Source: an uncultured Pelagibacteraceae bacterium (lineage in GTDB: Bacteria; Pseudomonadota; Alphaproteobacteria; Pelagibacterales; Pelagibacteraceae). Taken from it: a DNA stretch of 64,000 bases. The notes below the pieces were generated by a model. The model was not told the DNA's origin. It searched no databases and worked only from the letters and a program-made list of their open reading frames with translations. Made by a program: the position numbers and the translations under genes. Below, one piece after another: positions 39,637-61,951 of this stretch; within the stretch, counting starts at the first letter, position 1, and every line of letters starts with the position of its first letter. The stretch spans positions 21,175 through 85,174 of the forward strand of contig CABXSO010000001.1 of the NCBI GenBank assembly GCA_902514945.1, read 5' to 3'.

Positions 39637-40845
39637 GTGTCTAAACTAACATTTTCGTTAATACTATTTTTTCCAATATTTCTAATTGCTGGAAATTTTT
39701 TAATAAATCTTTTTTATATTTCAGTTTCGATTTTATCTGTTTTAAATTTTCATCAAGAAAAAGATTTTTTCAGATCAAATATATTTTACCTGTTAATATT
39801 TTTTCTAATCTACTTATGTATAAATCTTATATTCAGCATTAATTTTTATAATTCTTATCCTAGAGTAATAAAATTTCTACTTATAATTTTGTTTGTGAAA
39901 GAAATCGTCAATTTTAATAATAAAGGAGAAATTTATATTGAAAGAATAATGAGATTTTGGTCTGTATTATTTTTTATTGTCACCATTGATGTAATATTTG
40001 AAATTATATTTGGATTTAATACTTTGGGATTTAAGTCCTACATGCCTGGTAGAATTGCGAGTTTTTTCGGTGATGAATTAGTAGTTGGCACTTTTTATCA
40101 TTTTTTTTCTTTGATGGTATTATCGTATTTAGTTAAAAACAAATATTCAAATTTTTTCATTATTTCTCTTATAATCTTAATTATTTGTATAAGCTTTATG
40201 ATTGGTGAAAGAGCAAACTTCATCAAATTATTTTTTTCAATTTTAATAATTTCTTTTCTTATCTTGGAAATTGGTTTTATAAAAAAAATTGGTATGACCT
40301 TTTTAACTTTTTTAATCGTAGGAGGAATTTTTTACTCAAATGATAACATTAAAAGTAGATATTATAATCAAATTGGTAATATTTATTCTGTTGATGGTTT
40401 TAAAAAATTTTTTAAAGAATCTCAATATGGGGCACATCAAAGCACTGCTTACCAAATATTCAAAGATAATACCTTACTTGGTGTAGGACTTAAGAACTTT
40501 AGAGAAGAGAGTAAAAAAAGTAAATACGAAAATCCAGATTACAAAAGGTCAAATCAAAGACAAGCAACTCACCCACATCAGATCCATCTTGAGCTTTTAT
40601 CTGAACTTGGATTAATTGGGTACATTTCTTTCTTAGTTATGATTATTTACTCAATTATAGTTTCAGCTAAAAATTATTTTAAAAAGAAAAATCCTTATCA
40701 ACTTTCAACCTTGATTTACATTATATCTTGCTTGATTCCAATAATACCTTCGGGAAGTATATTTTCGACCTTCTTTGGAGGACTCTTTTGGTTTAGTTTT
40801 GGTTTAATGATCAGCTTTAATAAAAATTTAAAGCTTAAAGTTTGA
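39637..40845 (+). CDS. O-antigen ligase/polymerase-like membrane protein
   Basis: Multi-TM ORF with a late loop containing GVGLKNFREESKK...THPHQIHLELLSELGLIGYISFL, typical of the Wzy_C/WaaL family. Confidence 0.85.
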   Translation: MSKLTFSLILFFPIFLIAGNFLINLFYISVSILSVLNFHQEKDFFRSNIFYLLIFFLIYLCINLIFSINFYNSYPRVIKFLLIILFVKEIVNFNNKGEIYIERIMRFWSVLFFIVTIDVIFEIIFGFNTLGFKSYMPGRIASFFGDELVVGTFYHFFSLMVLSYLVKNKYSNFFIISLIILIICISFMIGERANFIKLFFSILIISFLILEIGFIKKIGMTFLTFLIVGGIFYSNDNIKSRYYNQIGNIYSVDGFKKFFKESQYGAHQSTAYQIFKDNTLLGVGLKNFREESKKSKYENPDYKRSNQRQATHPHQIHLELLSELGLIGYISFLVMIIYSIIVSAKNYFKKKNPYQLSTLIYIISCLIPIIPSGSIFSTFFGGLFWFSFGLMISFNKNLKLKV

Positions 40846-43240: not shown

Positions 43241-44329
43241 TTATTTTATTAAAGTTTTCTCAATAATTTCATCTTCTAAATTTATGTTTAATTTTTTGTT
43301 CTCTTTGTCATATAAATTTGAAATAAAATTAAATACATTCTTAGCATATAAATTGGACGCAGATACTGGTAATTTATTCAATATATTTGCCTCACCTAAA
43401 ATTTTAACACCATTTTTATCAACAATTTTATTCACTTCTGTAAATACCGTGTTGCCTCCCTGTACCGCCGCTAAGTCATATATAATTGAGCCTTTTTGAA
43501 GATTTTCAAACATTTTTTCTTTAATTATTTTTGGTGCCTCTTTTCCAGGAATTAAAGCTGTACAAATTACAATGTCAATTTTTTTCAGGGTTTCAGATAA
43601 AAGATCTTCTTGTTTTTTTTTAAAATCTTCAGATGTTTCTTTCGCATATCCACCTTTAGTTTCAAGATTTTCCATGCCCTCTACCATTAAAAATTTTCCA
43701 CCTAAACTTTCAACTTGCTCTTTAGATGCTGCTCTTACATCTGTTGCAAATACTATTGCACCCATTCTCTTAGCTGTAGCAATTGCTTGCAATCCAGCCA
43801 CACCTGCGCCAACTACAAGTACTTTTGCAGCTGGTATTGTGCCAGCAGCAGTCATCATCATTGGAATTGCTCTTTCATAAAATTGGAAAGCTTCTATAAC
43901 TGCTTTGTAGCCTGCAAGATTAGCTTGTGACGAAAGTATATCCATAGATTGTGCTCTAGTAATTCTTGGTAACATTTCTAATGAAAAACAATTGATTTTT
44001 TTTGATTTTAAAGAGATTAATTTTTCTTTGTTGGAAAAAAAATCTAGTGAACCTATTAGTGTTTGATTTTCTTTTAAAAGTGAGAGCTTATGATCTGTGG
44101 GTATTCCTAATTGAATGATTATATTTGCATTATCAATTATCTCTTTTTCACTGTCTAAAATATTTACTCCAAGACTCTTATAATTATTATCATCAAAGCC
44201 AAGATGAGAACCATAATTGGGTGGCAAAAACAATTTAAAACCTAAATCAATATATTTTTTTATAATTTCAGGCGTTATCGCCAATCTTTTTTCAAATTCT
44301 TTATTTTCTAAAAGCGAGACTATATTCAT
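43241..44329 (-). CDS. pntAA: NAD(P) transhydrogenase alpha subunit, NAD-binding part
   Basis: ENKEFEKRLAITPEIIKKY, AQSMDILSSQANLAGYKAVIEA, KVLVVGAGVAGLQAIATAKRMGAIVFATDVR. Confidence 0.96.
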   Translation of the reverse strand: MNIVSLLENKEFEKRLAITPEIIKKYIDLGFKLFLPPNYGSHLGFDDNNYKSLGVNILDSEKEIIDNANIIIQLGIPTDHKLSLLKENQTLIGSLDFFSNKEKLISLKSKKINCFSLEMLPRITRAQSMDILSSQANLAGYKAVIEAFQFYERAIPMMMTAAGTIPAAKVLVVGAGVAGLQAIATAKRMGAIVFATDVRAASKEQVESLGGKFLMVEGMENLETKGGYAKETSEDFKKKQEDLLSETLKKIDIVICTALIPGKEAPKIIKEKMFENLQKGSIIYDLAAVQGGNTVFTEVNKIVDKNGVKILGEANILNKLPVSASNLYAKNVFNFISNLYDKENKKLNINLEDEIIEKTLIK

Positions 44330-44335
44330 CAGAGA

Positions 44336-44446
44336 CTATAAAAGAAAAATTGCCATAAGAACAAGAACCAAAATTACCGCAACTGATCCCCATAAAACAA
44401 ATTTGGTAAAGTTATCCCAGGTTTTTTTATGGTTCTCATTATCCAT
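44336..44446 (-). CDS. aa3-type cytochrome c oxidase subunit IV-like small membrane protein (36 aa; not in ORF track)
   Basis: Reverse complement reads MDNENHKKTWDNFTKFVLWGSVAVILVLVLMAIFLL*; resembles the bacterial aa3 CoxIV family. Confidence 0.75.
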   Translation of the reverse strand: MDNENHKKTWDNFTKFVLWGSVAVILVLVLMAIFLL

Positions 44447-44449
44447 AAA

Positions 44450-44575
44450 TTATTTTTGTCTAGCTTTGAATTTTGGGTTGATTTTATTAATAACATAGAC
44501 TCTTCCTCTTCGTCTTACTAACTTTGAGTTGAGATCCCTTTTTTTTACTGATTTAAGTGAGCTTTTAATCTTCAT
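44450..44575 (-). CDS. rpmJ: 50S ribosomal protein L36 (41 aa; not in ORF track)
   Basis: Reverse complement reads [41 protein letters not shown]. Confidence 0.94.
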
Positions 44576-44587
44576 AAATTAAATAAA

Positions 44588-44703
44588 TGCTGGCAACGAC
44601 CTACTCTTCCATATCTTAAGACAAAGTACCATCGGCGCTGAAAGGCTTGACTGCCGAGTTCGAAATGGGATCGGGTATAACACTTTCGCAATAGTTACCA
44701 GCA
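44588..44703 (-). rRNA. rrf: 5S ribosomal RNA
   Basis: Reverse complement TGCTGGTAACTATTGCGAAAGTGTTATACCCGATCCCATTTCGAACTCGGCAGTCAAGCCTTTCAGCGCCGATGGTACTTTGTCTTAAGATATGGAAGAGTAGGTCGTTGCCAGCA has the conserved 5S core. Confidence 0.95.
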
Positions 44704-44760
44704 AGCCCTTATATAATATTAGTAATGATTGTAAATATTAAATTTTTTAAAATGTATCAA

Positions 44761-44790
44761 AAAAAACCTCTAAAAAAGAGGTTTTTTTTT
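44761..44790. terminator. Bidirectional rho-independent terminator-like hairpin
   Basis: AAAAAACCTCTAAAAAAGAGGTTTTTTTTT: stem flanked by A-run and T-run, functional-looking on both strands. Confidence 0.75.
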
Positions 44791-44861
44791 GTTAATAATT
44801 AATTTTTTTATCACTATAATTTTATATTTAAATCTAAATATTTATTTATGAAAAAGAAACT

Positions 44862-46259
44862 ATGCAATATTACCTAAATTCTAGTGAAGATTTTTTTAAA
44901 AAGCACTCTAGTAAGAGATTGAAATTTACTAGAGATAAAAAATTCTTATTCTCAGAAATTTCAAAATTTATTAATAATTGTGTTAATAATTCTAAAGAAA
45001 TTTTTTTGTTTTGTGCGGGAAATTCAATTATTGCAAATAATATTCAATCTGAAAAAATCAATATAAAAGAAATAAATGAAAAATTATATCAAGATTCTAA
45101 AGATAGAATTTATTATAAAAAAACTTTTGAAAAGGAAGATATTGAAAATTGTGATCATCTTGTGATTGCAGATATTGAACATCAAAATAATCCAGCTCTA
45201 AATTTACTTAAACTCTCAAATTTTATGAAAGATGAGGCTAGAATAATAATTTTATCGAAAAATTTTTTTTGGATGTTTGTTCTTAAATTTTTAAAAATTA
45301 TTTTTAATTTTTCTCCAACTAGAAATAATTTTTTACCATCATCATATTTATCTAATTTATATTCAAGTTGTAATCTAGAAATTGTGAGGTCAGAGAAAAT
45401 AATTGCACTTCCAATAAATATCCCAATTATAACAGATTTAATAAACAAAATATTTAGGTTACCAATTTTAAATTGGTTTTGCATTATGAATATAACCATT
45501 CTGAAAAAAATTAATACGAAGACAAATAAAGAAAACGAAAAAATTTCATTTATAATTCCATGTAAAAATGAAGAAAAAAATATTCCTTTATTTAAAGATC
45601 ATATTAAAGCTCTTAATGGAGAATATGAATTTCTATTTGGAGACGATTTTTCATCAGATCAAACTCTGATAGAAATTAATAAATTAAAATCAGAATTAAA
45701 AGATATAAAAATTAATTCTTATAAAGGGCCTGGCATTTGTAAATCTGAAAATGTTTATAAGGGAATAGAAATATCAAATGGAGATATTGTGGTTATTTAT
45801 GATGCAGATCTCACTGTAAGTTTTGATGATATAGAGTTTGCGATAAAAATTCTTGTGAACTCAAATGCAGATTTTATAAACTGTTCAAGAATGATTTATC
45901 CTCAGAAAGAGGGTGCTATGAAAAAATTGAATTTTTTAGGAAATAGTTTTTTTGCTCTTTTATTTAGTTTGCTATTCAAGAAAAAAGTAACAGATACATT
46001 GTGTGGTACAAAAATTTTTTATAAGAAAGATTGGGTAAAGATTAAACAAGATGTTTCTAATTGGGGCACAAAAGATTTATGGGGTGACTATGATTTACTT
46101 ATTGGTGCTTACAAAAATAATCTTAAAATTTTAGAAGTACCTGTCACATATTACGAGAGAACGTGCGGAGAAACCAAGATGACTAATGTTTTTAAAAATG
46201 CATTAAGAATGTTTTATATTATTGTTTATGCCTTTTATAAATTAAGACTCCAAAAATAA
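44862..46259 (+). CDS. Glycosyltransferase family 2 with N-terminal methyltransferase-like region
   Basis: C-terminal half ISFIIPCKNEEKNIPLF...YEFLFGDDFSSDQT...VVIYDADLTVSFDDIEFAI...DTLCGTKIFYKKDW; N-terminal half resembles the C-terminal part of a SAM methyltransferase fold. Confidence 0.83.
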   Translation: MQYYLNSSEDFFKKHSSKRLKFTRDKKFLFSEISKFINNCVNNSKEIFLFCAGNSIIANNIQSEKINIKEINEKLYQDSKDRIYYKKTFEKEDIENCDHLVIADIEHQNNPALNLLKLSNFMKDEARIIILSKNFFWMFVLKFLKIIFNFSPTRNNFLPSSYLSNLYSSCNLEIVRSEKIIALPINIPIITDLINKIFRLPILNWFCIMNITILKKINTKTNKENEKISFIIPCKNEEKNIPLFKDHIKALNGEYEFLFGDDFSSDQTLIEINKLKSELKDIKINSYKGPGICKSENVYKGIEISNGDIVVIYDADLTVSFDDIEFAIKILVNSNADFINCSRMIYPQKEGAMKKLNFLGNSFFALLFSLLFKKKVTDTLCGTKIFYKKDWVKIKQDVSNWGTKDLWGDYDLLIGAYKNNLKILEVPVTYYERTCGETKMTNVFKNALRMFYIIVYAFYKLRLQK

Positions 46260-46263
46260 TATT

Positions 46264-46992
46264 TTAGATTTTTGAATTTTGATAAATATACTCAAATGAT
46301 TTTCTAAAAGGCATTTTTGATTTATACTTCTTAACGAAACCATTTTTTTTAAGAAGAGAATGCACATCAGAAAATGTGTAATTTTTTTTTATCATATTGT
46401 CGTAATGATGTTCGAAATATACAAAGTGAACTTTATGGAAATTTTCCTTTAAACCTTTTAAAACCTCAAATTCAAAACCCTCTGTGTCTATTTTAATTAT
46501 ATCAATAATTTCAATTTCATTTTTTTTTATATAATAATCTAATGATTCAATCTTAACAGGAACTTTCTGAATGTAATTTTTAATGTCAGAAATATTTAAC
46601 ACTTTTAGTTTTCTTAAAAGATAATCAGATTTAAAGTTTATTTCGTTAATTGTTGAGGAAGAGGACTCTTGGGTTTGATTAATGACAGTCTCATAATTTT
46701 TTTGACCAAGTCCAATATTATTTAAATTACAAATAGTTCTATACTTAGATTTATTAATTTTATTTCTCAAAATATCAAAATTTTTTGGACTAGCTTCAAA
46801 ACAATGAAATTCCTTTATATTCAAATTTTCACCAAATAAATCAACAGTTTCTCCAAAGTGAGAGCCTATATCAAAAAAAATAATTTTTTTTTCATTTAAT
46901 TTTTTATTAAAAAAATGAATGATTTTTTTTTGAAAAAAAAAATCAAATAAATTTAAAATATATCTTACAAGTTTGATATAAAACTCTGTCAT
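46264..46992 (-). CDS. FkbM family methyltransferase
   Basis: IIFFDIGSHFGETVDLFG...FHCFEASPKNFDIL...IDIIKIDTEGFEFEVLKGL. Confidence 0.88.
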   Translation of the reverse strand: MTEFYIKLVRYILNLFDFFFQKKIIHFFNKKLNEKKIIFFDIGSHFGETVDLFGENLNIKEFHCFEASPKNFDILRNKINKSKYRTICNLNNIGLGQKNYETVINQTQESSSSTINEINFKSDYLLRKLKVLNISDIKNYIQKVPVKIESLDYYIKKNEIEIIDIIKIDTEGFEFEVLKGLKENFHKVHFVYFEHHYDNMIKKNYTFSDVHSLLKKNGFVKKYKSKMPFRKSFEYIYQNSKI

Positions 46993-47014
46993 CTATTTTA
47001 GATCTTTTTAAACA

Positions 47015-48040
47015 TTAAACTTTAAATTTATATTTATAGGCAAAAAGTTTAAAATAAATAGCACAATAAATAATTAAATTTAATATAAGCAGAATAATTT
47101 GATATTGTGTATTTGAAATATTTTGAATACCGAAACTAAAAATAATTAGATTGTATAATAAGATAATTAATGACCCATAATTATTTGCAAAAATACTTTT
47201 TAATTTATATTTATTTTTTAAATAAAAAAATAAAAGTTGATGTAAATGATTATTATCAGGTTTTATGGGAGATTTCTTTAATTGAAATTTCCTCAATATA
47301 GAAAATAAATTTTCAAAACATGGATACCACAACAGTAAAATAACAAAAAAAGGTGAAAATATTTGGTATTCAATGTAAATCTTTATTAAGAGATATCCAT
47401 AAAAAAAGCTTAATATATACGCACCCGTATCTCCCATAAAAGACTTTTTAAAAAGGTTTAGTAAAAATAAAATAAATAAAATAAATGAAAAAAATAACGA
47501 ACTATCATTTTCAATATTTAAAAAATTAATAAAATTTAGTTGGTAGAATATAATTGATATTAATAAGTAATAACCCACTAACAATCCGTTCAATCCATCA
47601 ATAAAATTTGATCCATTAATTAAGATCAAAAGACAAAACGTAGAAAAAAAATAACTTAATAAAGAATTTGAAATTAAAAGATCTATTATATGAATTCTTG
47701 TTGGTGAAATTCTTAAATCAGACGTATAGACAATTAAAAATAATAAAATCGTTTGAATTAAAAATCTAATTTTAGGTGAGGCTATTATTTTAAGATCACT
47801 CGACAATCCCAATATAAATAAGAAAGAAAAAAGATACATAACAGACTCAATTTCTTTCAAATATAGATACAAAATTGAAAAAAAAATAAATATGCCACCA
47901 GTTAATGGTACGGTAGTTAGTCCAGAAAATTTTTGATGTATCGAGCCACTGTAATTAAGTAGAATTTTTTTTTTAATAAAAAAGTTATTTAAAAAAATAA
48001 AAAATAAAAAACTAATTATAATTATTATTAATTCTTTCAT
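47015..48040 (-). CDS. MraY/WecA-like undecaprenyl-phosphate sugar-1-phosphate transferase
   Basis: Multi-TM protein with NGSNFIDGLNGLL and FMGDTGAYILSFFYGYL motifs. Confidence 0.88.
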   Translation of the reverse strand: MKELIIIIISFLFFIFLNNFFIKKKILLNYSGSIHQKFSGLTTVPLTGGIFIFFSILYLYLKEIESVMYLFSFLFILGLSSDLKIIASPKIRFLIQTILLFLIVYTSDLRISPTRIHIIDLLISNSLLSYFFSTFCLLILINGSNFIDGLNGLLVGYYLLISIIFYQLNFINFLNIENDSSLFFSFILFILFLLNLFKKSFMGDTGAYILSFFYGYLLIKIYIEYQIFSPFFVILLLWYPCFENLFSILRKFQLKKSPIKPDNNHLHQLLFFYLKNKYKLKSIFANNYGSLIILLYNLIIFSFGIQNISNTQYQIILLILNLIIYCAIYFKLFAYKYKFKV

Positions 48041-48781
48041 CTATTTGAATAAAGAATTAATGCTCAATAAAAATAAAAAAAATACTGATTTAAATAAATT
48101 AAATTTCATAAATTTATTATAAACACTATATCCGTCTTTTATCTTTTGTATAATGGAAGATGATAAGGAATTACTAAGTTTTCTCCAGTACATTAAATTT
48201 TTTTGTAATCCACCTATTTTAATATTTTTTTTTAATATTTTTAGCCATAACACAAAATCTTCTTTCGTTTTCAAATTTACAAACAAACATCCCTTAGTTA
48301 AGATTTCTTTTTCCACTATTACAGAAGAAAGTCCTATATCACATGATTTTAAAAGATCACTTATGCTGTGAAAGTTCCTTGCGGTTCTATAATTTAAAAT
48401 ATTATTCTCATTATCTATAATTTCATAATCTGTATGACTTATTAATAAATTTTTTTCCTTCATAAACTTGATCTGCAATTCTAATTTATTTTTTTTCCAC
48501 AAATCATCTGCATCTATAAAACTAACGTAGCGCCCTTTTGATTTTTTAATACCTTTATTTCTGGATAATCCAGCACCTAGAGATTTTTTATTAATCATCA
48601 GAATTATTCTTTTATCAATATTTACTAATTTTTTTATAAATTTAAGCTCATCTTTGTCATCGTCATCATAAATAATAATTATCTCAAAATTCTTATAAGT
48701 TTGTTTTAAAACGGATTTAAGTGTATCAGTGATGTATCTTCTTTTTTTGTAATAAGGTATTATAATTGAAACTAGATCCAT
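48041..48781 (-). CDS. Glycosyltransferase family 2
   Basis: VSIIIPYYKKRRYITDTLKSVLKQTYKNFEIIIIYDDD, GLSRNKGIKKSKGRYVSFIDADDLW. Confidence 0.92.
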   Translation of the reverse strand: MDLVSIIIPYYKKRRYITDTLKSVLKQTYKNFEIIIIYDDDDKDELKFIKKLVNIDKRIILMINKKSLGAGLSRNKGIKKSKGRYVSFIDADDLWKKNKLELQIKFMKEKNLLISHTDYEIIDNENNILNYRTARNFHSISDLLKSCDIGLSSVIVEKEILTKGCLFVNLKTKEDFVLWLKILKKNIKIGGLQKNLMYWRKLSNSLSSSIIQKIKDGYSVYNKFMKFNLFKSVFFLFLLSINSLFK

Positions 48782-48871
48782 TATATTTATAAATTTAGTA
48801 TGTGTTTAAGTAATTTGAATATATCTGTTTATATTTCTAATTTGAATATTTTTGTATAAATAATTTTAATT

Positions 48872-49969
48872 TTGATGATAAAAAAAAATATAATCATATT
48901 TATGCCTACAATTGATTATGGAGGTGGTGTAGAAAAGAATTTTTTTATTATTACAAATTATCTATCAACAAAATTCAAGAAAATTACTGTAGTTACACTT
49001 TCACAGGCTGTTAAAACAAAATTGAATAATAAAGTAAATATTGTATGTCCAAAAATTAGCTTAATTCATTATTTAGGAAGAAGACTTAGATTTATAGTAG
49101 CTCTAGTATATTTACTTCAAACAATTCTGGTAAATAAAAAACCAACTGTATTTTGTTTCCAGGGAATTATTTATTGTACCTTATTGTGTAAAATCATTGG
49201 AACTAAAATTATCGTAAGATCTAATTCGTCACCTTCAGGTTGGTCTAATAATTTTATTAAAATGATTTTGTACAAAAAAATTTATAGTTTTGCAGACACA
49301 ATTGTTGTTAACAGTCAAAATTTTAAAAAAGAAATCAAAAAAAAATTTAATTTGGAAAGTGTATGTATTTATAATCCACTTAACAAAATTGAGGTTTTAA
49401 AAAATTCCAAAAAAGAAATAAATTTTAATTTTTTTAATAAAAAGTACTTAAACTTGATAAGTGTCGCAAGATTTGCAGAACAGAAAGATCATGAATGCCT
49501 TATCAGAGCAATCAACTTGCTTAAAAATAAATCAAATATCAAATTACTTTTAATAGGCTCGGGTAATTTAAAAAAAAAGATATCTTATTTAATCAAAAAA
49601 TTTAAACTTTCAAAAAATATTAAAATAATTGATTATCAAAAAAATCCATTTCCGTTTATTAAGATGAGCGATGTATTTATACTTTCATCTAAATATGAAG
49701 GCTCTCCAAATGTTTTATTGGAAGCAATAACCTTAAATAAATTAATTATTTCCTCTGATTGTCCAACAGGACCAAGAGAGATTTTAGATGAAGGAAAAGG
49801 TGGTATTTTATTTAAAGTCGGAGATTACAAAAGATTATCAAATATAATTCAGTTTTTAAAAAAAAAAAATAAAAAATTTGACAAATTAAAAACTCATGCA
49901 AAAAAAAGATTATACAGATTTGACTATAAAAAAAGATTAGATGACTATTTTAAAATAGTAAGTACCTAA
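48872..49969 (+). CDS. Glycosyltransferase family 4
   Basis: ISVARFAEQKDHECLIRAI, LLLIGSGNLKKKI, FILSSKYEGSPNVLLEAI. Confidence 0.9.
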   Translation: MMIKKNIIIFMPTIDYGGGVEKNFFIITNYLSTKFKKITVVTLSQAVKTKLNNKVNIVCPKISLIHYLGRRLRFIVALVYLLQTILVNKKPTVFCFQGIIYCTLLCKIIGTKIIVRSNSSPSGWSNNFIKMILYKKIYSFADTIVVNSQNFKKEIKKKFNLESVCIYNPLNKIEVLKNSKKEINFNFFNKKYLNLISVARFAEQKDHECLIRAINLLKNKSNIKLLLIGSGNLKKKISYLIKKFKLSKNIKIIDYQKNPFPFIKMSDVFILSSKYEGSPNVLLEAITLNKLIISSDCPTGPREILDEGKGGILFKVGDYKRLSNIIQFLKKKNKKFDKLKTHAKKRLYRFDYKKRLDDYFKIVST

Positions 49970-50748
49970 TTTTTATTTTGGCTTAGTAATATAGATTTAA
50001 ATATTTTTAAAACTGTGTGAATCGAAAATAACCTTACATAAAGAAATTCTTGTATTCTACCCATCAAACTAGATTTAAAAAAATTTGGTAAAATTTCAAA
50101 CTCAGAACTTATTGGTTCAATATTAGTATTCCTCCATTTTGGTATCATCACAAATGACAATAATAGCCTTTGTTTATTAGAAAAATTAACAGTACCTCGA
50201 TGCCATAAATTATGTTTTCTGATTAAAATTTGGCCTTTATTCATTAATAGTTTTTTTTTATCTTTTTTTGAAAAAAAAAATTCATGGAAAGACATAGATT
50301 TTAGATGAGAACCAGCGCAGATTTCAGTTGGACCATTTTCTAAAGTGATATCTTCGGTCGCTATTGAAACCATATACATTTCATTTTCATATTTTCCATC
50401 TGTATGAAAATGTTGAACTCCTTTTTTTGGTAAGACAAGATTGCCACCATAATTAATATCAAATGAATCTAATTTTTTTAATGTAATTTCTTCAAAATAT
50501 TTAATAAACTCATCCTTAAATACTAAAGAATACAATTTTTTAGCAAATGGTCCTTGGTTTATTCCAAAGTTGCCCATTAAATAACCTCCAAATTTTTTAA
50601 GATTTGGATTCTCTAATGCTAGTGAAAGTGATTTTTCAATATCAGTAATTAAACTAGAAAATAAGTGATTATCACCTAACGAAGTATCTAATAATACAAA
50701 ACCATTTGTATCAAAAAAATTTTTCTTAATTTTTTTTCTTAAAAACAT
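49966..50748 (-). CDS. Phytanoyl-CoA dioxygenase (PhyH)-like Fe(II)/2OG oxygenase
   Basis: QHFHTDGKYENEMYMVSIATEDITLENGPTEICAGSH...IRKHNLWHRGTVNFSNKQRLLLSFV: HxD...H...R pattern. Confidence 0.75.
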   Translation of the reverse strand: MFLRKKIKKNFFDTNGFVLLDTSLGDNHLFSSLITDIEKSLSLALENPNLKKFGGYLMGNFGINQGPFAKKLYSLVFKDEFIKYFEEITLKKLDSFDINYGGNLVLPKKGVQHFHTDGKYENEMYMVSIATEDITLENGPTEICAGSHLKSMSFHEFFFSKKDKKKLLMNKGQILIRKHNLWHRGTVNFSNKQRLLLSFVMIPKWRNTNIEPISSEFEILPNFFKSSLMGRIQEFLYVRLFSIHTVLKIFKSILLSQNKN

Positions 50749-51463
50749 AATCCTCTTTATGAAGTTTGGTAATAAATTTATAATCTTTACTTATCATATA
50801 TTTTCTTAGTTTATTAAAATTATAACTTTCAATACATAAATAATTTATTTGAATTTTATCGAAATTTATACCCTTTAATAATTCCAATTCTGATCCTTCA
50901 ACATCTATAATGGCAAGATCCAACAATTTTATCTTATATTGACTAAAAATATTTTCTAAACTTTCTATTTTACATTTGTAAGATTTAAAATTTCCAGATC
51001 TAGAATCTCTCGCTAAATTATCAATTCTGTTTACTGGATAATCTGTAAAATAGAATTTATCTTTATCATCAACTATATAAGACATTTGGTTTAAATTTTT
51101 GATATACAATTTTTTGTTAAAAAATTTGTTATTCAAGCATATGACATTTAAACAAATATTATTCGGTCTATTTCTTTTTAAATATTTATAATGTAGCGGA
51201 TTGGGCTCTATTAACAAACCTGACCAATTCAATTCTTTTTCAAATCTAAGTGAAATAGATTCTGAAATTCCATTGTAAGCTCCAACTTCTAAAAATAACC
51301 CATCCTTTTTTTTTATTATATTAATTAAATCTTTATCAATATTTCCTCTTGAAGAATAATTTTTGAATAAAAAAAATTTAAGTGACTGATAATTTGAAAT
51401 AAATTTAAGCCACAAATTATAAGAAAAAATATTTTTTAAAAATTTTTTAATCTTATTAATCAT
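50726..51463 (-). CDS. FkbM family methyltransferase
   Basis: GLFLEVGAYNGISESISLRFEKELNWSGLLIEPNPLHYKYLKRNR...LLDLAIIDVEGSELELLKGI. Confidence 0.87.
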   Translation of the reverse strand: MINKIKKFLKNIFSYNLWLKFISNYQSLKFFLFKNYSSRGNIDKDLINIIKKKDGLFLEVGAYNGISESISLRFEKELNWSGLLIEPNPLHYKYLKRNRPNNICLNVICLNNKFFNKKLYIKNLNQMSYIVDDKDKFYFTDYPVNRIDNLARDSRSGNFKSYKCKIESLENIFSQYKIKLLDLAIIDVEGSELELLKGINFDKIQINYLCIESYNFNKLRKYMISKDYKFITKLHKEDYVFKKKN

Positions 51464-51465
51464 TT

Positions 51466-52617
51466 TCAGTAAAATAACTGAATTAATTTATTGTGATGAT
51501 TCAATAATGTAAATTTTTTTACAAATTTTTTTGCTGATATTTTTTTTTCTAATATTTGACTTTCTTGCAAATTAGTTAAAAAATTAAATTTTTCAATAAA
51601 ATCCCTTTTATTATTACTTTGAAACAAAACTCCTCTATTTTTATCTAAAATTTCCTTTGGCCCACTAGCACAATCACTCGAGATAACGATTGTATTAGAG
51701 AACATGGCTTCAATTATTACAAATCCAGGGTCTTCCCACAATGAAGAAAGGATGAATGCTTTAGATTTGATTAAATATTTAAATACGTTCTCATTATACC
51801 CTTTCAAATATATCTTATTTTTCAAGTTGTATTTGGTTATCAGTGTCTCTAAGCTCGATTTATTTTCTCCTGAACCAATAATTATAAGTTTAATATCCTT
51901 CTTGGTTTTTAAGATTTCGTTAAAACATTCTATCAAAAAATTAAAATTTTTTTGTTTTGTTAGTCTTCCAATTGCTAAATAAAATTTCTCATTATCAATT
52001 ATTTTATCCTCACTATGTTCATTCTTTTTTTTACAAATTTCTTTTACATTTAATATGGGGTCATATAGTAATTCGAATTTTTTTTTATCAGCGATATTTA
52101 AAGATTTAAAATAATTTAGTGTTTCTTGAGTTGGAAAAGTAATTTTATGAATATTCTTTAGTGAAATCTTCCATAAAAAAAATCTAACAAAATTTAATCT
52201 AGGTTTCCCTGAAATTCTAAGAATAAATTTTGTTTGAAATTTATAAATTAAATTAAGAAATAGGGGTAATGACGTTACCAAATGAATAATAATAAAATCT
52301 GGTTTGTTTTTATTTATAAAATTTTTAAGTGGAAAAAAACATAATAAAAAAATTAATACATATTTAATTCTGCTCTTTAAGAATCCAAGTGAGGAAAATT
52401 TATTTAAAAAACTAAATTTAGTTAAAGGGAAAAAATAATTCTTATTTTGATCAAAATAATTATTCATTTTCCACTCACCAAATGTATCAATTATTTTTGC
52501 ATCATATTTTTTTGATGAATAACGATTTAATGAATTAACAGAGTTGTAAACTGCTTTGATTGTTGCAACTTTATCAATAAATGGAGCCCAATAATAAATT
52601 TTCTGAAATTTATCCAT
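51466..52617 (-). CDS. Glycosyltransferase family 4
   Basis: YLAIGRLTKQKNFNFLIECF, LIIIGSGENKSSLETLI, AFILSSLWEDPGFVIIEAMFSNT. Confidence 0.9.
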   Translation of the reverse strand: MDKFQKIYYWAPFIDKVATIKAVYNSVNSLNRYSSKKYDAKIIDTFGEWKMNNYFDQNKNYFFPLTKFSFLNKFSSLGFLKSRIKYVLIFLLCFFPLKNFINKNKPDFIIIHLVTSLPLFLNLIYKFQTKFILRISGKPRLNFVRFFLWKISLKNIHKITFPTQETLNYFKSLNIADKKKFELLYDPILNVKEICKKKNEHSEDKIIDNEKFYLAIGRLTKQKNFNFLIECFNEILKTKKDIKLIIIGSGENKSSLETLITKYNLKNKIYLKGYNENVFKYLIKSKAFILSSLWEDPGFVIIEAMFSNTIVISSDCASGPKEILDKNRGVLFQSNNKRDFIEKFNFLTNLQESQILEKKISAKKFVKKFTLLNHHNKLIQLFY

Positions 52618-53725
52618 AAAGTATTTTTCTTAAATAATTTAAATAGAGCAGCGAATTTTTTTCGATATAAAATCTATTTACTCTTTTTTTTGCAAATTGA
52701 GACTTCACTCGTGCATTGTCATAATTATTTATCACATAAATAATTTTTTCCGCTAGAAGATACTTATTTGATATAGGCACTGAATACCCACCTTTTCCAT
52801 AATCAATTATTTCCAATGGTCCACTTTTGCAGTCAGTTGTAATAATTGGTATTTTATGATTAGCAGCGTCAATTAAAACATTTCCTAATCCTTCATAGAT
52901 AGAACTTAATATAAAAATTTTAGATTCTGTATAGTATAGATTTAAATTTTTGGTCCACTTTTTTATTTTAATTTTATTATTTAATTTTAATTTGCTAATT
53001 ATTTTCTTTAACTCTCTCTGTTTTTCACCGCTTCCAACAATCGATAATTTAAAATTTGGGATTTTTTTATGAATTAAACTAAAGGCGTATATTAAAGTTT
53101 TAAAATCTTTTTGTTTAGTTAATCGTCCAACAGATAAAATCAGATCTTTTTTTTTATTTTTTTTTATTTTCAAATTTTCTTTTAAATAAGGATTATAAAT
53201 ACTTTTTATTTTTTTTTCATTCAGAACTAATTTATTCATTGATAACTTTGAGCCCTTTGAATTAGTAATGATTCCGTTTGCAAAATTATAAGTTAAAATT
53301 TTAGAAAAAATTACAAATAAAGCTAAAATCTTTTTATCTGCATAAAGTGTTGAATAAACAGGATCTTCTGCATTACGTACTACAATTTTAAATCCAAATA
53401 TTCTTGAGATTAAAATAGCTATAGAACTACTTTGAAAAGAAAAAACTACTGTATTTTCTTTTTTTGATTTTTTTAATTCATCAATTAATAACTTTGAAGC
53501 TTCTCGGGCAGTCGACAAACGATTTGGTAAAAAACTTTTATTCAATTTAAAATATTTATATGAAAAATAATTTTTATTTAAAATATCTAATTTGTTAAAA
53601 TTAGACGAAATTAAAACAACATAAATCTTTTTTTTCAGAAGATAATTTATAAAGTTAACTAAAACAATTTCAACTCCCCCTCTTTCAAAAGAAGGATAAA
53701 ACAATATTATTTTTTTTAAGTTCAT
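52610..53725 (-). CDS. Glycosyltransferase family 4
   Basis: LILSVGRLTKQKDFKTLIYAF, LSIVGSGEKQRELKKII, IFILSSIYEGLGNVLIDA. Confidence 0.92.
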   Translation of the reverse strand: MNLKKIILFYPSFERGGVEIVLVNFINYLLKKKIYVVLISSNFNKLDILNKNYFSYKYFKLNKSFLPNRLSTAREASKLLIDELKKSKKENTVVFSFQSSSIAILISRIFGFKIVVRNAEDPVYSTLYADKKILALFVIFSKILTYNFANGIITNSKGSKLSMNKLVLNEKKIKSIYNPYLKENLKIKKNKKKDLILSVGRLTKQKDFKTLIYAFSLIHKKIPNFKLSIVGSGEKQRELKKIISKLKLNNKIKIKKWTKNLNLYYTESKIFILSSIYEGLGNVLIDAANHKIPIITTDCKSGPLEIIDYGKGGYSVPISNKYLLAEKIIYVINNYDNARVKSQFAKKRVNRFYIEKNSLLYLNYLRKILYG

Positions 53726-53729
53726 TAGC

Positions 53730-54701
53730 TTAATTTGAAAATCTTAAATATCTTTTATTCTTATATTTTTTAAACCACGTCGAAGTTTTTTTATATCCTA
53801 CGTCAAATTTAGTAAATTTGTACTTCTTAATAAATTTGATTAATTTTAGGTTTGAGCCATAAGTAATATGCATTTCTCCTTTTCTTTTTTTTAAATAATT
53901 CAATTGCATTTTTTTTTTCTGATTTCTTTTAATTAGATTAATCACATTACTAATTTTAAGTGGATTTGAAGCACAAACATTAAATAAATTTATTTTATTA
54001 TTTAATAGTTTTGAAATTTTAAAAACTATATCAACAACATCATCGATATAAGTAAAGTCACGAAAATGCTCACCAAAATTATAAACATTGATTTTTTTTT
54101 GATATGTTAAGTTTGTCATTATTTTTAGCAACAACATATCTGGTCTACCAAATGGTCCATAAACTGTGAATGGTCGAATTATTGAAGTTGAACACTTAGA
54201 GTTACTTAATTTTCTTCGAATAATATTCTCACATTCAACTTTGGTTTTTGCGTAATAATTTATAGGTTTGAGTTTGAAATTTTCTTTTATAGGGTATTTT
54301 TTATGGTCGCCATAAACTGAACTTGAGGAGCAAAATATAAATTTTTTGATTTTATTTTTGCCTATTATCTGAACAAGATTCTTTGTAGCATTAACATTAT
54401 TTTTTTTATAGCTTTCTGGATTTTTATATGAATATATCACTCCTGGTTGAGCAGCAAAATGTATTACTTTTGTTATTTTATTATTTTCAAATATTGAGGA
54501 TAATTTATTTTTATTATTTAAATCCATTTTATAGAATTTAAAATATTTGCTTTTATTTAAAATTTTTATTCTATCTAGCTTATAATTTTTAGAATAGTAT
54601 GAATTTAGGTTATCAATTCCTATAATTTTTGTTTTTCTTTTAATTAAAAATTTACTGAAATGAAAACCTATAAATCCTGCACAGCCTGTAACAATATACA
54701 T
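53730..54701 (-). CDS. NAD-dependent epimerase/dehydratase (UDP-glucuronate epimerase-like)
   Basis: YIVTGCAGFIGFHFSKFLIKR, VIHFAAQPGVIYSYKNP, SSSSVYGD, YYAKTKVECE, RPFTVYGPFGRPDM. Confidence 0.92.
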   Translation of the reverse strand: MYIVTGCAGFIGFHFSKFLIKRKTKIIGIDNLNSYYSKNYKLDRIKILNKSKYFKFYKMDLNNKNKLSSIFENNKITKVIHFAAQPGVIYSYKNPESYKKNNVNATKNLVQIIGKNKIKKFIFCSSSSVYGDHKKYPIKENFKLKPINYYAKTKVECENIIRRKLSNSKCSTSIIRPFTVYGPFGRPDMLLLKIMTNLTYQKKINVYNFGEHFRDFTYIDDVVDIVFKISKLLNNKINLFNVCASNPLKISNVINLIKRNQKKKMQLNYLKKRKGEMHITYGSNLKLIKFIKKYKFTKFDVGYKKTSTWFKKYKNKRYLRFSN

Positions 54702-55802
54702 CTAAAATCCCTCTAAAAATCTTAAAGCTCTTTTTTTTAAACCATATCTTTTACTTAATTTAAAATTATTTTTTGAAAATATTGTTCTTTTTTCAAAATT
54801 ATTAATTATTTTATTTATCTCAAGCTTCCACAAATTTGGATTATTAAAGTTTTTTATAAAAATAGAATTTTTATTTGTTAGAATCTCTCTTAGAGCTGGT
54901 AAATCTGATGAAATTATAATTTTACCAGTAGTCAAATAATCAAATAACTTTAATGGTGAAGTAAAATTAGTTATATCACCAACATTACCCCCTGATGTAA
55001 TTTTTTGATTATAAGGCATTAAAAGTATATCCATTTTATTAAGTTCTTTCTCAATATTTTTATATTCTACATAATCTTTGAAAAATAAATTATTTTTAAA
55101 ATTACTTAATTTTAATTTTGCATTTCTTTTATCTCCATAAATAAAATAGTAATTATTTTTGTCTATAATTGACAGTTTAACTAAAAGATCAATATTCCAT
55201 TTATAAATAGATCCAAAAACCCCTATTTTTACTTTTGTTCTTTTTTTAAAATTATTGTTAATTTTTTTTTTTAATGAAGATCCACTTGGCAATATATGTA
55301 TCCTGGTATCATTAAAATCTAAAAATTTTGAATAATAATTTCCAGCTTTATTTGAAATCGCTATAAATCTAATCAAATATTTTGATTTAAAAAATTTTAA
55401 TCTTTTAGTAATAAATCTAACTACCCTACTTTCAATATCTAAAGGATGATGAAGTTCAAGAATATTCTTTTTTCTTAAAAGACAAAGTAAGAATGATGTA
55501 AAAAAATTTCTCGTTATATAAATATCTGGTTTATATCTTAAGCTTGCGAAAATTGATTCGATTGAAAAAAAATAATATTTAAAACCTAAAGGGAATTTTT
55601 TGTATCTTTTTAGCTTAATAAAATTGAATTTTGTTTTAACATTATAGTATTCAAAGATTGAGTCTTTAATTTTTTCAGAGTTTGGGCTAATTAATAAAAC
55701 ATCGTTTCCATTTTCAACTAAGGCTTCACACATTTTTATGGTCTGTATTGAGTTTGCCATTTTTGAGGGCATATCGTTGTTTGAAAGATAACAAACTCTC
55801 AT
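54702..55802 (-). CDS. Glycosyltransferase (GT4-like fold)
   Basis: CYLSNNDMPSKMANSIQTIKMCEAL; LLMPYNQKITSGGNVGDITNFTSPLKLFDYLTTGKIIISSDLPALREIL. Confidence 0.82.
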   Translation of the reverse strand: MRVCYLSNNDMPSKMANSIQTIKMCEALVENGNDVLLISPNSEKIKDSIFEYYNVKTKFNFIKLKRYKKFPLGFKYYFFSIESIFASLRYKPDIYITRNFFTSFLLCLLRKKNILELHHPLDIESRVVRFITKRLKFFKSKYLIRFIAISNKAGNYYSKFLDFNDTRIHILPSGSSLKKKINNNFKKRTKVKIGVFGSIYKWNIDLLVKLSIIDKNNYYFIYGDKRNAKLKLSNFKNNLFFKDYVEYKNIEKELNKMDILLMPYNQKITSGGNVGDITNFTSPLKLFDYLTTGKIIISSDLPALREILTNKNSIFIKNFNNPNLWKLEINKIINNFEKRTIFSKNNFKLSKRYGLKKRALRFLEGF

Positions 55803-55812
55803 CTTTTAAATC

Positions 55813-56910
55813 CTATAATTTATTTTTTTCAAAAAAAATAAATTTTATAATATCTCCTAGTGTTGTCTTTTTTGAAAAATTTTTAAAATAATTATCAATT
55901 TGTGAATAATTTTTCCTATCAAATTCTCCATATTTACTTTGAATAAAATGTTTTATTGCCAAAAATCGTATTAAAACCCTAGATGAATAATAGCGATTAA
56001 AAATAAAAAAAAATGAAAATAAAAATTTTAAAATAGAAACTGAATATCCAAAGAATTTATCAGATAAATTGCCAATTTTTTTTATTAACAAAAGTCTATA
56101 TTTATAATTGTAATATATATTTTTTGCCCAGTTTCTGCCTACGGTCACAGACACAAAGTGAAAGACTTTCTCATCAAGATCTACGCACAATAATCCCTCT
56201 CGTTGCTTCAATCGATGAGATAAATCAATATCCTCCTCCCCATAAAAAAAATCTGGATCTGATAAACCAGCTTTTTTTAGTGCAGAGCCCTTCATTAATG
56301 ACGCACATCCACAAACTGCATCAGATTTTATTAAACCTTTAAAATCTTTTCTGTCTAAGTGGATCCCGTTGTAATCAGCACAATTTTTTTGAAATTTTAA
56401 ATTATATCCTATGGTAGTTCCTCGATACCACACATAGTTTTTTTTATAACCATGCAATATTTTTGGACTTATACCCACAATTTCTTTATTATTTTCTAAT
56501 CTTTGAATTAGATTATTAAGAGTTGTTTTGGGTACAACTATATCATTATCCATTCTTGCTATATATTTAAATTTATTTTTTAATAGGAACTTATATCCTG
56601 CATTGTGGCCTAAACCACATCCATAATTCTCTTTATTTTTAATATAGTAAATTTTTTTTTGATTAGGGTGGTTTCTAACTTTTAAAAATTCTTTTTTATT
56701 TCTTAATATCATGATATTTTTTTTTTTTAACCAAGTTTTAATATTTTCAAAATATATTTGATCAGAATTATTATCTATTAAAACTATTAATGGACTAATT
56801 TTGCTTTGATTAATTATTGAATTTAAACATTTTATAGTTTTTTTATAATCATTCCAAAAAAGAACAACAACACCTAAAAAATTTTTTTTATATGGATTTT
56901 TATTTTTCAT
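55813..56910 (-). CDS. Glycosyltransferase family 2 (start trimmed)
   Basis: MKNKNPYKKNFLGVVVLFWNDYKKTIKCLNSI..., YIARMDNDIVVPKTTLNNLI, GLSDPDFFYGEEDIDLSHRLKQ; ORF track start at 56982 would overlap the upstream gene by more than 80 bp. Confidence 0.88.
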   Translation of the reverse strand: MKNKNPYKKNFLGVVVLFWNDYKKTIKCLNSIINQSKISPLIVLIDNNSDQIYFENIKTWLKKKNIMILRNKKEFLKVRNHPNQKKIYYIKNKENYGCGLGHNAGYKFLLKNKFKYIARMDNDIVVPKTTLNNLIQRLENNKEIVGISPKILHGYKKNYVWYRGTTIGYNLKFQKNCADYNGIHLDRKDFKGLIKSDAVCGCASLMKGSALKKAGLSDPDFFYGEEDIDLSHRLKQREGLLCVDLDEKVFHFVSVTVGRNWAKNIYYNYKYRLLLIKKIGNLSDKFFGYSVSILKFLFSFFFIFNRYYSSRVLIRFLAIKHFIQSKYGEFDRKNYSQIDNYFKNFSKKTTLGDIIKFIFFEKNKL

Positions 56911-57769
56911 AAAATAGAATTTTACTAAAATATATTTCTGATAGATATCCATGTGGTAAAAATTTTTCTGTAGCACCTCCATGTATATTTGTTATTTCAC
57001 CAATAAAAATTTCTTTATCATTGGTGTACATATCAATTCTGACAAAATTAAAATATTTACTAATTTTCTCAGCAAGAATAATCATTTCATTGAAATTTTT
57101 TGGTTTTATTAATTTTTTTTCATTCATTTTAAAATCTATTGATATGCCTAACTTATTCCACTCAATATCATAAATACTTCTGGAATGATCAGTTGCTCTA
57201 TCAAAGTCTACTTGAACCGCTTTTGCCTGTCCATTGAAACAAAAAATTTTATAATCAATTATATTTTCATTATTGAATAATAGTGGCTCAATGATGATCT
57301 TGGGTTTTAGATTTAAATAATTTCTTTCCCTATTCGCGTAATATTGGTTTTGACGAAACCAACTTTCAATTTTCTGTTTATCTATATTATCTAATTGATT
57401 TTTTTCTTTTTTAATAATCCATTTTCCAGCCAAATGAGTAGGTTTAATTACGCAATTAGAATTTAAAGTAAATTTATCTATCTCAGAAAAATTTTTAGCA
57501 ACTAAAATATTGGGCACTATATATTTTTTTTCTATTACTTGATGTAAAAATATTTTACAAAATTCTTTGTCTGACACAAAAATTCTTAAAGGATCCTCAA
57601 TCTCTTTGGAAGTCTTAATATAATAAAGCATATCATTAAAAATCTTTTTTTTTGACGGCAATCTTTTGTGTATAAAAAAGAACTGTATAAATGACAAAAT
57701 TTTATCAAAAAATTTATTGTTAGGTAAGTTATCTAGGAAAAATTTAAATAAGGTTCTTTTGATATTCAT
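56900..57769 (-). CDS. TupA-like ATP-grasp domain protein
   Basis: NCVIKPTHLAGKWIIKKEKN, IIIEPLLFNNENIIDYKIFCFNGQAKAVQVDFDR, FVRIDMYTNDKEIFIGEITNIHGGATEKF. Confidence 0.8.
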   Translation of the reverse strand: MNIKRTLFKFFLDNLPNNKFFDKILSFIQFFFIHKRLPSKKKIFNDMLYYIKTSKEIEDPLRIFVSDKEFCKIFLHQVIEKKYIVPNILVAKNFSEIDKFTLNSNCVIKPTHLAGKWIIKKEKNQLDNIDKQKIESWFRQNQYYANRERNYLNLKPKIIIEPLLFNNENIIDYKIFCFNGQAKAVQVDFDRATDHSRSIYDIEWNKLGISIDFKMNEKKLIKPKNFNEMIILAEKISKYFNFVRIDMYTNDKEIFIGEITNIHGGATEKFLPHGYLSEIYFSKILFYEK

Positions 57770-57820
57770 TTTTTTAATTATATCATATTTAGAAGTATTA
57801 ATACTTGAACCTAATAATTG

Positions 57821-58606
57821 TTATTTTTTTAAAATATTATGGAATACTAAAGCTAATAATATACTCAAGTTTATCAAGAGATATCCAATTGTGAAAAATA
57901 ATAGAACTTCAGGTAAGTAATTACGAGTATAAATCGAAATTAAAGAGAATGTTAACAGTATTATCTCGTTGATACCACATTGGGTAAATATATTTCTCCA
58001 ACAATAAAAGATTAAAGATCCAGTTTTTGATTTTTTTCTATAATTAAAACTTCTTTTAAATTGACAAGCTATGACTAGCCAGAAAAATGAATTATTATTA
58101 ATTTTTTTCGTATAAGGAAAATTAGTCAAAAAAGGTCTCAAAATATTAAATAAAGTTAAACTAAAAATAGTTAAAATCATTAAATTAAATTCTATTAAGT
58201 TATCTTTGTATAATCCAATAGATAAAGATGGAAATAATAGTATATAGAAAATATCAGAATTTATCCTCTCCAGTGTTGAGCCTAGACTAGAAATTGAATT
58301 TTGCAACCTGGCTAGTTCACCATCAATGTTATCTAATAATACCCATGAGCAAGCAATTAAAGATCCCATCAAATAATTTGAATTAGAAAAAAAATAAAAA
58401 CATAAAAATGATACTAAAATTGAAAAAATTGTAATTGTGTTAGGCTTTATCTCTATTTTATTTAAAAAATAATAAGAGAGAATTACAGATACTCTTCTAG
58501 AAAGAGTGGCAAGTAAGTATGGCTTTTCGTATCGAATTTTTTCAAATGGATAAATAATCTTTTGAATTTTTTTTGGAACTAATATTCCCAGGGGTTTTTC
58601 TCTCAT
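57821..58606 (-). CDS. CDP-alcohol phosphatidyltransferase family protein
   Basis: Multi-TM; DNIDGELARLQNSISSLGSTLERINSD aligns to the DxxDGxxAR(x8)GxxxDxxxD motif with deviations at the third and fourth Asp. Confidence 0.8.
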   Translation of the reverse strand: MREKPLGILVPKKIQKIIYPFEKIRYEKPYLLATLSRRVSVILSYYFLNKIEIKPNTITIFSILVSFLCFYFFSNSNYLMGSLIACSWVLLDNIDGELARLQNSISSLGSTLERINSDIFYILLFPSLSIGLYKDNLIEFNLMILTIFSLTLFNILRPFLTNFPYTKKINNNSFFWLVIACQFKRSFNYRKKSKTGSLIFYCWRNIFTQCGINEIILLTFSLISIYTRNYLPEVLLFFTIGYLLINLSILLALVFHNILKK

Positions 58607-59293
58607 TTATTTTACTATATATGATGGCCTGTTGAAAAAAGGAAATTTAATAATCTTTTTATTTTTTTTTTTTAAAAATCTATTGATTGTATCTGTCTCG
58701 CCTTTATAAAAAGTTCCACCAGTTCCCACACCTTCATAATTATCAAAAAGAATTATGCCGCCTTTAATAACTTTATTATATAAGTTGTCAAGAACACATT
58801 GCGTTGTTTCGACAAAATCAATATCTACATTTAATAGTGCAATTTTAAGATTGGGATTTTTTTTTACGAAATTTGGAATAGTTTGCAATACATCGCCTTT
58901 TATAAGTTTAAAATTTTTTATTTTTTTTTTTTTAAAAATTTTTGTTAATTGATTAATCGCGATCGAACTTCCACCAGCCGTGTTAATCCAGTGTTTTCTC
59001 TGTTTTTTTTCATTTTTAAATTTTGTGTCTGGAAATTTATCACTAAAAACATCGAATGCTATGAGTTTATTGCTTTTTGATTTACCAATAAGTTCTCTTA
59101 ACATCGCGAATCTGGAGAGAGATGTTCCTTTAAAAACCCCACACTCAACGATTGATCCTTTATAATTTTTTATCTTTTTAAATATTTCATAATGAATTAA
59201 AAACTTTGACAATCTCTCATCATTCATAAATAAATTAAAATGCGTTTCTGCGTCATACATATTTTGTAAATTAAATTTAGGAAGTTTAATCAT
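58607..59293 (-). CDS. TylF/macrocin O-methyltransferase-like SAM methyltransferase
   Basis: GSIVECGVFKGTSLSRFAMLRE, IALLNVDIDFVETTQCVLDNLYNKVIKGGIILFDNYEGVGTGGTF. Confidence 0.85.
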   Translation of the reverse strand: MIKLPKFNLQNMYDAETHFNLFMNDERLSKFLIHYEIFKKIKNYKGSIVECGVFKGTSLSRFAMLRELIGKSKSNKLIAFDVFSDKFPDTKFKNEKKQRKHWINTAGGSSIAINQLTKIFKKKKIKNFKLIKGDVLQTIPNFVKKNPNLKIALLNVDIDFVETTQCVLDNLYNKVIKGGIILFDNYEGVGTGGTFYKGETDTINRFLKKKNKKIIKFPFFNRPSYIVK

Positions 59294-60063
59294 TTTTTAA
59301 ATAAGGATTTTGCTTTAATATAATCCTGTTTTGTGTCAATTTCAATCCATCTTGAATTAATTGTTTTTTTATACTTGATATTATTAACTTTTAAAAATTC
59401 ATTCATAAAATGCTCCCAGTTAAGTTGAATATTTTCTTTTTTTTTTAAAAATTTTTTTAAACTAAAAATCATTTTTACTTTTATATCACTCTTTATCAGA
59501 ATTATTCCTATTGCTTCTCCAACAAAATTTAGTTTTTTAAGCTCCGATTTTTTAATTAATCTTTTGTCTATTGTTTTTCTTACAAATCCATATTTGTCTG
59601 CTAGTGCTTTAGCGCATTCAACGTTTGAAATTGAAGTTTTTCCAATCAGAAAAGATGAATGTGTGTTATGTTTTAAAAAACTCTTTAAAATATCACTCGA
59701 AAATACAAGATCTCCATCAAAAACCAGACTATTTCCATATGATTTTTCAAGCCCTTTTAAAAGGGAAAATGAATTTCCTTTTATTCTATACTCATTATTG
59801 TAAATAAATTTAAAATTAAAATAATTATCAAATTTTTTAATTTCTTTTTTTATTAATTTTTTTTTATATCCTAAAACTAGTACTACATCTTTAATTTTAA
59901 ATTTCTTTAAAATCTCTAAATTTCTATCAATTAAAGTTTGGTTATTAACTTTTAACAAACACTTTGGGTTTCTAGTAATATTTGAAATTCTTTTACCAAA
60001 ACCAGCTAACAAAAAAATTGCTGAAAGTTTATTTAGTTTTTTTTTTCTCTGTTTTTGATCCAT
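59290..60063 (-). CDS. MobA/LicC-like nucleotidyltransferase (candidate phosphonate or choline-phosphate cytidylyltransferase)
   Basis: SAIFLLAGFGKRISNITRNPKCLLKVNNQTLIDRNLEILKKFKIKDVVLVLGYKKKLI, FDGDLVFSSDIL. Confidence 0.85.
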   Translation of the reverse strand: MDQKQRKKKLNKLSAIFLLAGFGKRISNITRNPKCLLKVNNQTLIDRNLEILKKFKIKDVVLVLGYKKKLIKKEIKKFDNYFNFKFIYNNEYRIKGNSFSLLKGLEKSYGNSLVFDGDLVFSSDILKSFLKHNTHSSFLIGKTSISNVECAKALADKYGFVRKTIDKRLIKKSELKKLNFVGEAIGIILIKSDIKVKMIFSLKKFLKKKENIQLNWEHFMNEFLKVNNIKYKKTINSRWIEIDTKQDYIKAKSLFKK

Positions 60064-61948: not shown

Positions 61949-61951
61949 GAC

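Follow-up and report, generated by a model that had tools for sequence, protein, structure and literature searches.

Alternative gene orders at the 5S rRNA border of the SAR11 hypervariable region HVR2, and the association of 5S alleles with the neighbouring island

The hypervariable region HVR2, or O-chain cluster, lies within the rRNA operon of SAR11 bacteria. It was described in 2007, and recombination at the flanking rRNA genes was proposed (Wilhelm 2007, PMC2217521). A figure of 54,755 bp is given for LSUCC0530 (LD12; PMC6018831), and in 2025 the cluster was mapped in ~800 single cells and isolates with the 5S and 23S genes as its ends (PMC11898729). In that survey most shared clusters were vertically inherited and recent whole-cluster swaps were rare, so SAR11 exchanges may be old. 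The closest precedent for the present analysis is the work on replacement flexible genomic islands and homologous recombination (Lopez-Perez 2014, PMC4033161), in which it was inferred from closely related HTCC strains that rRNA genes had moved with the O-chain cluster, and in which a SNP peak in pntB was reported. The island and the idea are the same here, but many species have been tested, and the fitted tract ends fall mostly in rpmJ or in the small gene after it. Also on record are relocated clusters or displaced 5S genes (Ib.4, PMC11898729; uisw_092, PMC12421898), in which the 5S gene is parted from its usual partner.

The locus presented here lies in a window of 64,000 nt, which is the whole stretch of DNA that was analysed. 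It forms the border of HVR2 on the 5S side, HVR2 being the O-chain cluster by which the SAR11 rRNA operon is divided. The feature is already known, and the window supplies a further example. As in the published examples (PMC2217521; PMC6018831; PMC11898729), AT-rich surface-polysaccharide genes of variable content are bounded by the sole 5S gene, with a 23S bound found in relatives; in contrast to those examples, only the 5S side is assembled. About 200 relatives entered the comparison. To the published descriptions are added alternative gene orders at the 5S gene (border haplotypes), a 5S promoter, 5S alleles that are linked both to border type and to the island, and a reclassification of Rfam family RF01810.

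The 5S gene and the island beside it

A full-length 5S rRNA gene is found on the minus strand at 44588–44702 (RF00001, 88.6 bits, model positions 1–120, E 1.2e-17), and genome-wide RNA-model matching gives one 5S copy in the assembly. Three genes follow on the same strand. First is rpmJ, encoding ribosomal protein L36 (44450–44575; PF00444, 57.7 bits), whose ATG is 12 nt past the 5S 3′ end. It is followed by a gene for a small membrane protein of 36 amino acids (44336–44446; PF07835, COX4_pro_2), and then by pntA, NAD(P) transhydrogenase alpha (43241–44329; PF05222/PF01262), with which the conserved core flank begins. No 16S or 23S gene was found in the window, including the 19.3 kb upstream of the 5S, and none was matched across the assembly (870 kb, 42 contigs, 77% complete); in this incomplete assembly the sole 5S gene thus stands apart from 16S–23S. 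The first-pass annotation had described a lone, complete minus-strand 5S gene between rpmJ and a glycosyltransferase island, and the RF00001, PF00444 and other Pfam matches confirm it.

The same annotation placed the hypervariable region between the 23S and 5S genes and took the window to capture one of its boundaries. Contig C1 stops exactly at base 64000, short of any 23S. Support for the claim comes from seven relatives of the same genus or family, where 23S and 5S lie on the same strand 46–62 kb apart. Measured from the 23S 3′ end, the distances are 46.2 kb (G160), 55.4 kb (G172), 57.6 kb (G164), 61.9 kb (G158), 55.8 kb (G152), 45.8 kb (G153) and ~55 kb (G151, with the 23S partly masked). 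Searches for 23S by RNA model and by DNA missed it in some complete genomes, several of which, when retrieved, had stretches of N at the place concerned. No intact 16S–23S–5S operon was found. Among genomes of the genus, 106 gave a 5S match, with exactly one 5S gene reported in every case. Named relatives found through pntA are SAR11 (Pelagibacteraceae), mostly uncultured AG- isolates, plus HTCC9565. One genome (G159:C1; L046, L055) carries the 23S near 170 kb (−) and the 5S at 608 kb (+), ~437 kb apart on one contig, and resembles a published relocated cluster or displaced 5S. The arrangement in the window is the ordinary one, unlike those of Ib.4 and uisw_092.

The 5S-side part of the island, or HVR2, extends over 44862–63256 and is recognized by Pfam content, low GC and poor conservation in 13 relatives. 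Its first gene encodes a family-2 glycosyltransferase (44862–46259, +). The surface-polysaccharide gene content of SAR11 HVR2 is seen in further Pfam matches: glycosyltransferases, FkbM and TylF methyltransferases, an epimerase, TupA ATP-grasp, PEP mutase–nucleotidyltransferase, TauD and CDP-alcohol phosphatidyltransferase. GC is 23.6%, as against 29.6% in the rest of the window (the core, before the 5S), in keeping with the low GC of HVR2. An apparent phosphonate cassette within the island (57821–63256, −) consists of genes for a PEP mutase–nucleotidyltransferase fusion, a TauD-like dioxygenase, a nucleotidyltransferase and a CDP-alcohol phosphatidyltransferase. Among the 13 relatives, only one has a homologue of the PEP mutase gene in its island. 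On the core side, just after tRNA-Met, is an O-antigen ligase-like gene (Wzy_C; 39637–40845, +), whose homologues among the 13 relatives are confined to their HVR2.

Synteny was compared by setting the window proteins against 20 kb of the core side and up to ~60 kb of the island side in the 13 genomes. Core genes between 23 and 44 kb keep their order, mostly in 9–12 of 13 genomes and typically at 62–94% identity; those at 23–39 kb are found in 9–10 of 13 at 62–94% mean identity, and 12 have pntB. At the 5S this conservation falls away sharply: island genes mostly occur in 0–5 of the 13 genomes, and the genes from 44.8 to 64 kb are not syntenically conserved. The hypervariable island and syntenic core are as expected of HVR2, and the first-pass annotation had proposed looking for such a break in synteny around rpmJ–5S.

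The 5S promoter and the small gene before pntA

A putative promoter for the 5S lies at 44708–44735 (−), with a −35 TTTACA (44730–44735), a 16-nt spacer and a −10 TATAAG (44708–44713), matching 11 of 12 consensus bases. Across genomes, a promoter of TTTACA / 16–17 nt / TATAA type ends ~5–7 nt ahead of the 5S. In 96 of 121 genomes the 60 nt before the 5S contain a −35/−10 pair scoring at least 10 of 12, in most of them at the same position, as compared with 20 of 121 shuffled controls and 5 of 120 sequences further upstream. Conservation shows that the 5S has its own sigma-70-type promoter, which is presumably active. In the window, a bidirectional terminator-like hairpin sits between this promoter and the island (44759–44789; 13-bp stem, −13.3 and −14.2 kcal/mol, U-runs on both strands). 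The next start codon after the 5S is 6–26 nt away in the genomes typed. Such a gap leaves no room for a terminator, and the 5S is therefore probably co-transcribed with rpmJ or, in other genomes, with an epimerase gene.

The 36-amino-acid gene coincides at its start with a match to RF01810, the 'pntA' structured RNA (44389–44450, −; covariance model 71.9 bits, cut-off 54). RF01810 originated as a weak candidate motif between rpmJ and pntA in HTCC1062 (PMC2704228). The consensus of its alignment translates as MDNENHKNTWNNFTKFVLW. The open reading frame belongs to COX4_pro_2 (PF07835, 46.1 bits against a curated cut-off of 22) and adjoins pntA, not a cox operon. It is present in 93 of 119 genomes, with 36 codons in 90; dN/dS is 0.13, and changes are concentrated at third positions. 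In RF01810, variability by codon position is 0.075/0.045/0.248. Covariation beyond chance was not found in RF01810, the published pairs giving 26 double-change cells and the slid controls 8–35. Judged from the sequences, RF01810 appears to be mainly coding and is probably a mis-called small protein gene, although the region may have an additional role as RNA. Since this Rfam family appears to be a protein gene, it should be reviewed.

Border haplotypes

The 5S gene touches rpmJ in 67 of 121 genomes with a 5S locus, and a sugar epimerase gene lies between the two in 48; the remainder are arranged otherwise. Type A, which is the window's, has the order island–5S–rpmJ (41 genomes, and 4 with short upstream sequence). 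Type B is 5S–epimerase–rpmJ (45 genomes, another 2 with additional genes and one truncated), and type C is epimerase–5S–rpmJ (22 genomes). The order epimerase–5S–glycosyltransferase–rpmJ is found in three. There are also single cases: in G060 (L197) the 5S is inverted relative to rpmJ–pntA at a distance of 145 bp, in G077 gmd-like and epimerase genes lie between 5S and rpmJ, and in G166 there is no rpmJ within 1.5 kb of the 5S. A set of 80 pntA loci from named genomes, which overlaps in part with the 121, comprises 23 (+2) of type A, 31 of B, 15 (+1) of C, 4 others and 4 with no 5S in reach.

The first-pass annotation had regarded the 5S as an anchor for strain-variable surface genes. It does border the island; it is not fixed, however, as the position of the epimerase varies and the 5S allele tends to change with the island. 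The constant flank is rpmJ–pntA, not the 5S. Several interchangeable border haplotypes exist, 5S–rpmJ, 5S–epimerase–rpmJ and epimerase–5S–rpmJ, which would be the result of the exchange proposed below.

A tree of the rpmJ–pntA segment from 117 genomes requires at least 38 changes of border type (A, B or C), and 13 between type B and the rest when only strongly supported branches are counted; the segment is itself near the border, and this core tree may be affected by exchange. On the epimerase tree, the position of the gene (core side of the 5S, island side or elsewhere) changes only 6 times, against a shuffled mean of 36, from which it follows that each position carries its own epimerase lineage. 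The two results together indicate that arrangement and epimerase lineage have been exchanged as a unit against the core background. Variants in helix I of the 5S are likewise linked to border type: CCTGG/CAGGC is found in 47 of 47 type B genomes and GCCGG in 16 of 25 of type C.

Two other readings of the borders were considered. An 863-bp gap between 5S and rpmJ in three genomes was examined as a possible reciprocal recombinant with two epimerases, and this was rejected, as the gap contains an antisense glycosyltransferase gene. Loss of the epimerase in type A was also considered; an orthologue is present elsewhere in 16 of 24 type A genomes searched. In the window genome it is on another contig (C13:18094–18960; L211, G000), and in other type A genomes it stands beside various other genes.

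Proposed exchange of the 5S gene with the island

It is very probable that the locus is the 5S-side border of HVR2, that the separated 5S has its own promoter with read-through into the next gene, and that the island is exchanged by homologous recombination in tracts that commonly include the 5S. Under this explanation the 5S would be transcribed from its sigma-70-type promoter, and the transcript would probably read on into rpmJ, or into the epimerase gene in other genomes. New island versions would arrive through homologous recombination, and the exchanged tract would commonly take in the 5S; in closely related pairs, divergence profiles suggest that it often extends into rpmJ or the COX4-like gene.

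The evidence comes from close pairs of genomes of one border type with pntA 2–14% different, islands that have 400 bp or more of adjacent sequence in common being counted as shared. With pntA about equal (matched), 5S divergence is 2.0% where the island is shared and 6.1% where it is not, and rpmJ divergence is 7.7% and 12.6%, though in these larger counts the pairs overlap in species. With non-overlapping pairs, each genome being used once per group (11 sharing, 22 non-sharing), the values are 2.1% versus 5.8% for 5S (p=0.0013) and 8.2% versus 11.8% for rpmJ (p=0.02), and pntA is not different. The excess of 5S change in pairs with unrelated islands implies that the 5S often travels with the island; from these comparisons, the 5S allele tends to change together with the island. 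The clearest case is L228/L261, with differences at 13 of 115 positions in 5S and 15 of 125 in rpmJ, but at only 35 of 1063 in pntA. When change points were fitted, with distant-pair divergence as the scale, the tract ended in rpmJ or the COX4-like gene for 55 of 63 pairs, and for 7 of the 9 that do not overlap. Here too species recur among the pairs; the likelihood ratios are not calibrated, and the best-fitted pairs are mostly of unlike border type. Exchange-type divergence at the border, as expected of a replacement island, is thus seen in relatives, and the window 5S compared with its nearest relatives offers no example.

The strongest competitor is the 2007 proposal, in which the 5S is a fixed, vertically inherited anchor and exchange is limited to upstream DNA, the crossovers falling within the 5S or upstream of it. 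In close pairs homology does run out tens of bases or less from where the 5S starts: of 215 such pairs with alignments of 2.3 kb or more, 187 have the alignment end within −20 to 100 bp of that point. AG-325-C18 (L220) aligns with the window at 85% until 44705 and AG-430-D06 (L223) at 86% until 44741, and neither has homology beyond despite further sequence. The window 5S is identical to those of L220 and L221, and the adjacent islands of the window and L220 are unrelated, so that in this pair the break is at or upstream of the 5S. Against a fixed anchor, the 5S is ~3× more divergent in different-island pairs at similar pntA distance, and border type flips repeatedly. Moreover, 5S divergence averages 13.1% in close A–C and B–C pairs, and distant species average 9.5%. 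As a general rule the fixed anchor is already disfavoured, and it is judged improbable.

A rate or saturation effect, whereby the few free sites of the 5S change fast in every lineage, is less probable still. For so constrained a gene, a ratio to distant-pair divergence can mislead; yet island-sharing pairs at the same pntA distance remain low in 5S divergence, at 0.6% in type A, and the helix-I variants follow border type. That an island contig was wrongly joined at the 5S in assembly or binning is hardly credible: the assembly is incomplete and in 42 contigs, but AG-337-C07 (L221) is collinear for 7.4 kb across the junction at 89%, through 47642, and the same arrangement recurs in many genomes.

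Exchange that includes the 5S remains the preferred explanation. A broader formulation of it is considered likely, with somewhat less confidence: that the 5S is part of an exchangeable surface-antigen cassette, in which whole border haplotypes would be traded between species, each made up of the island end, the 5S and its promoter, and in many cases rpmJ and the epimerase, with rRNA variants hitchhiking.

In SAR11, one of the most abundant bacterial groups in the ocean, surface variation resides mainly in HVR2, which is also a candidate target for selection by phages. If these findings hold, the usual definition of the cluster, from 5S to 23S, omits rpmJ-side genes in ~40% of genomes, and exchange events could be dated from core-side breakpoints. 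If 5S and rpmJ are exchanged with HVR2, the 5S would be a poor marker of lineage in these organisms.
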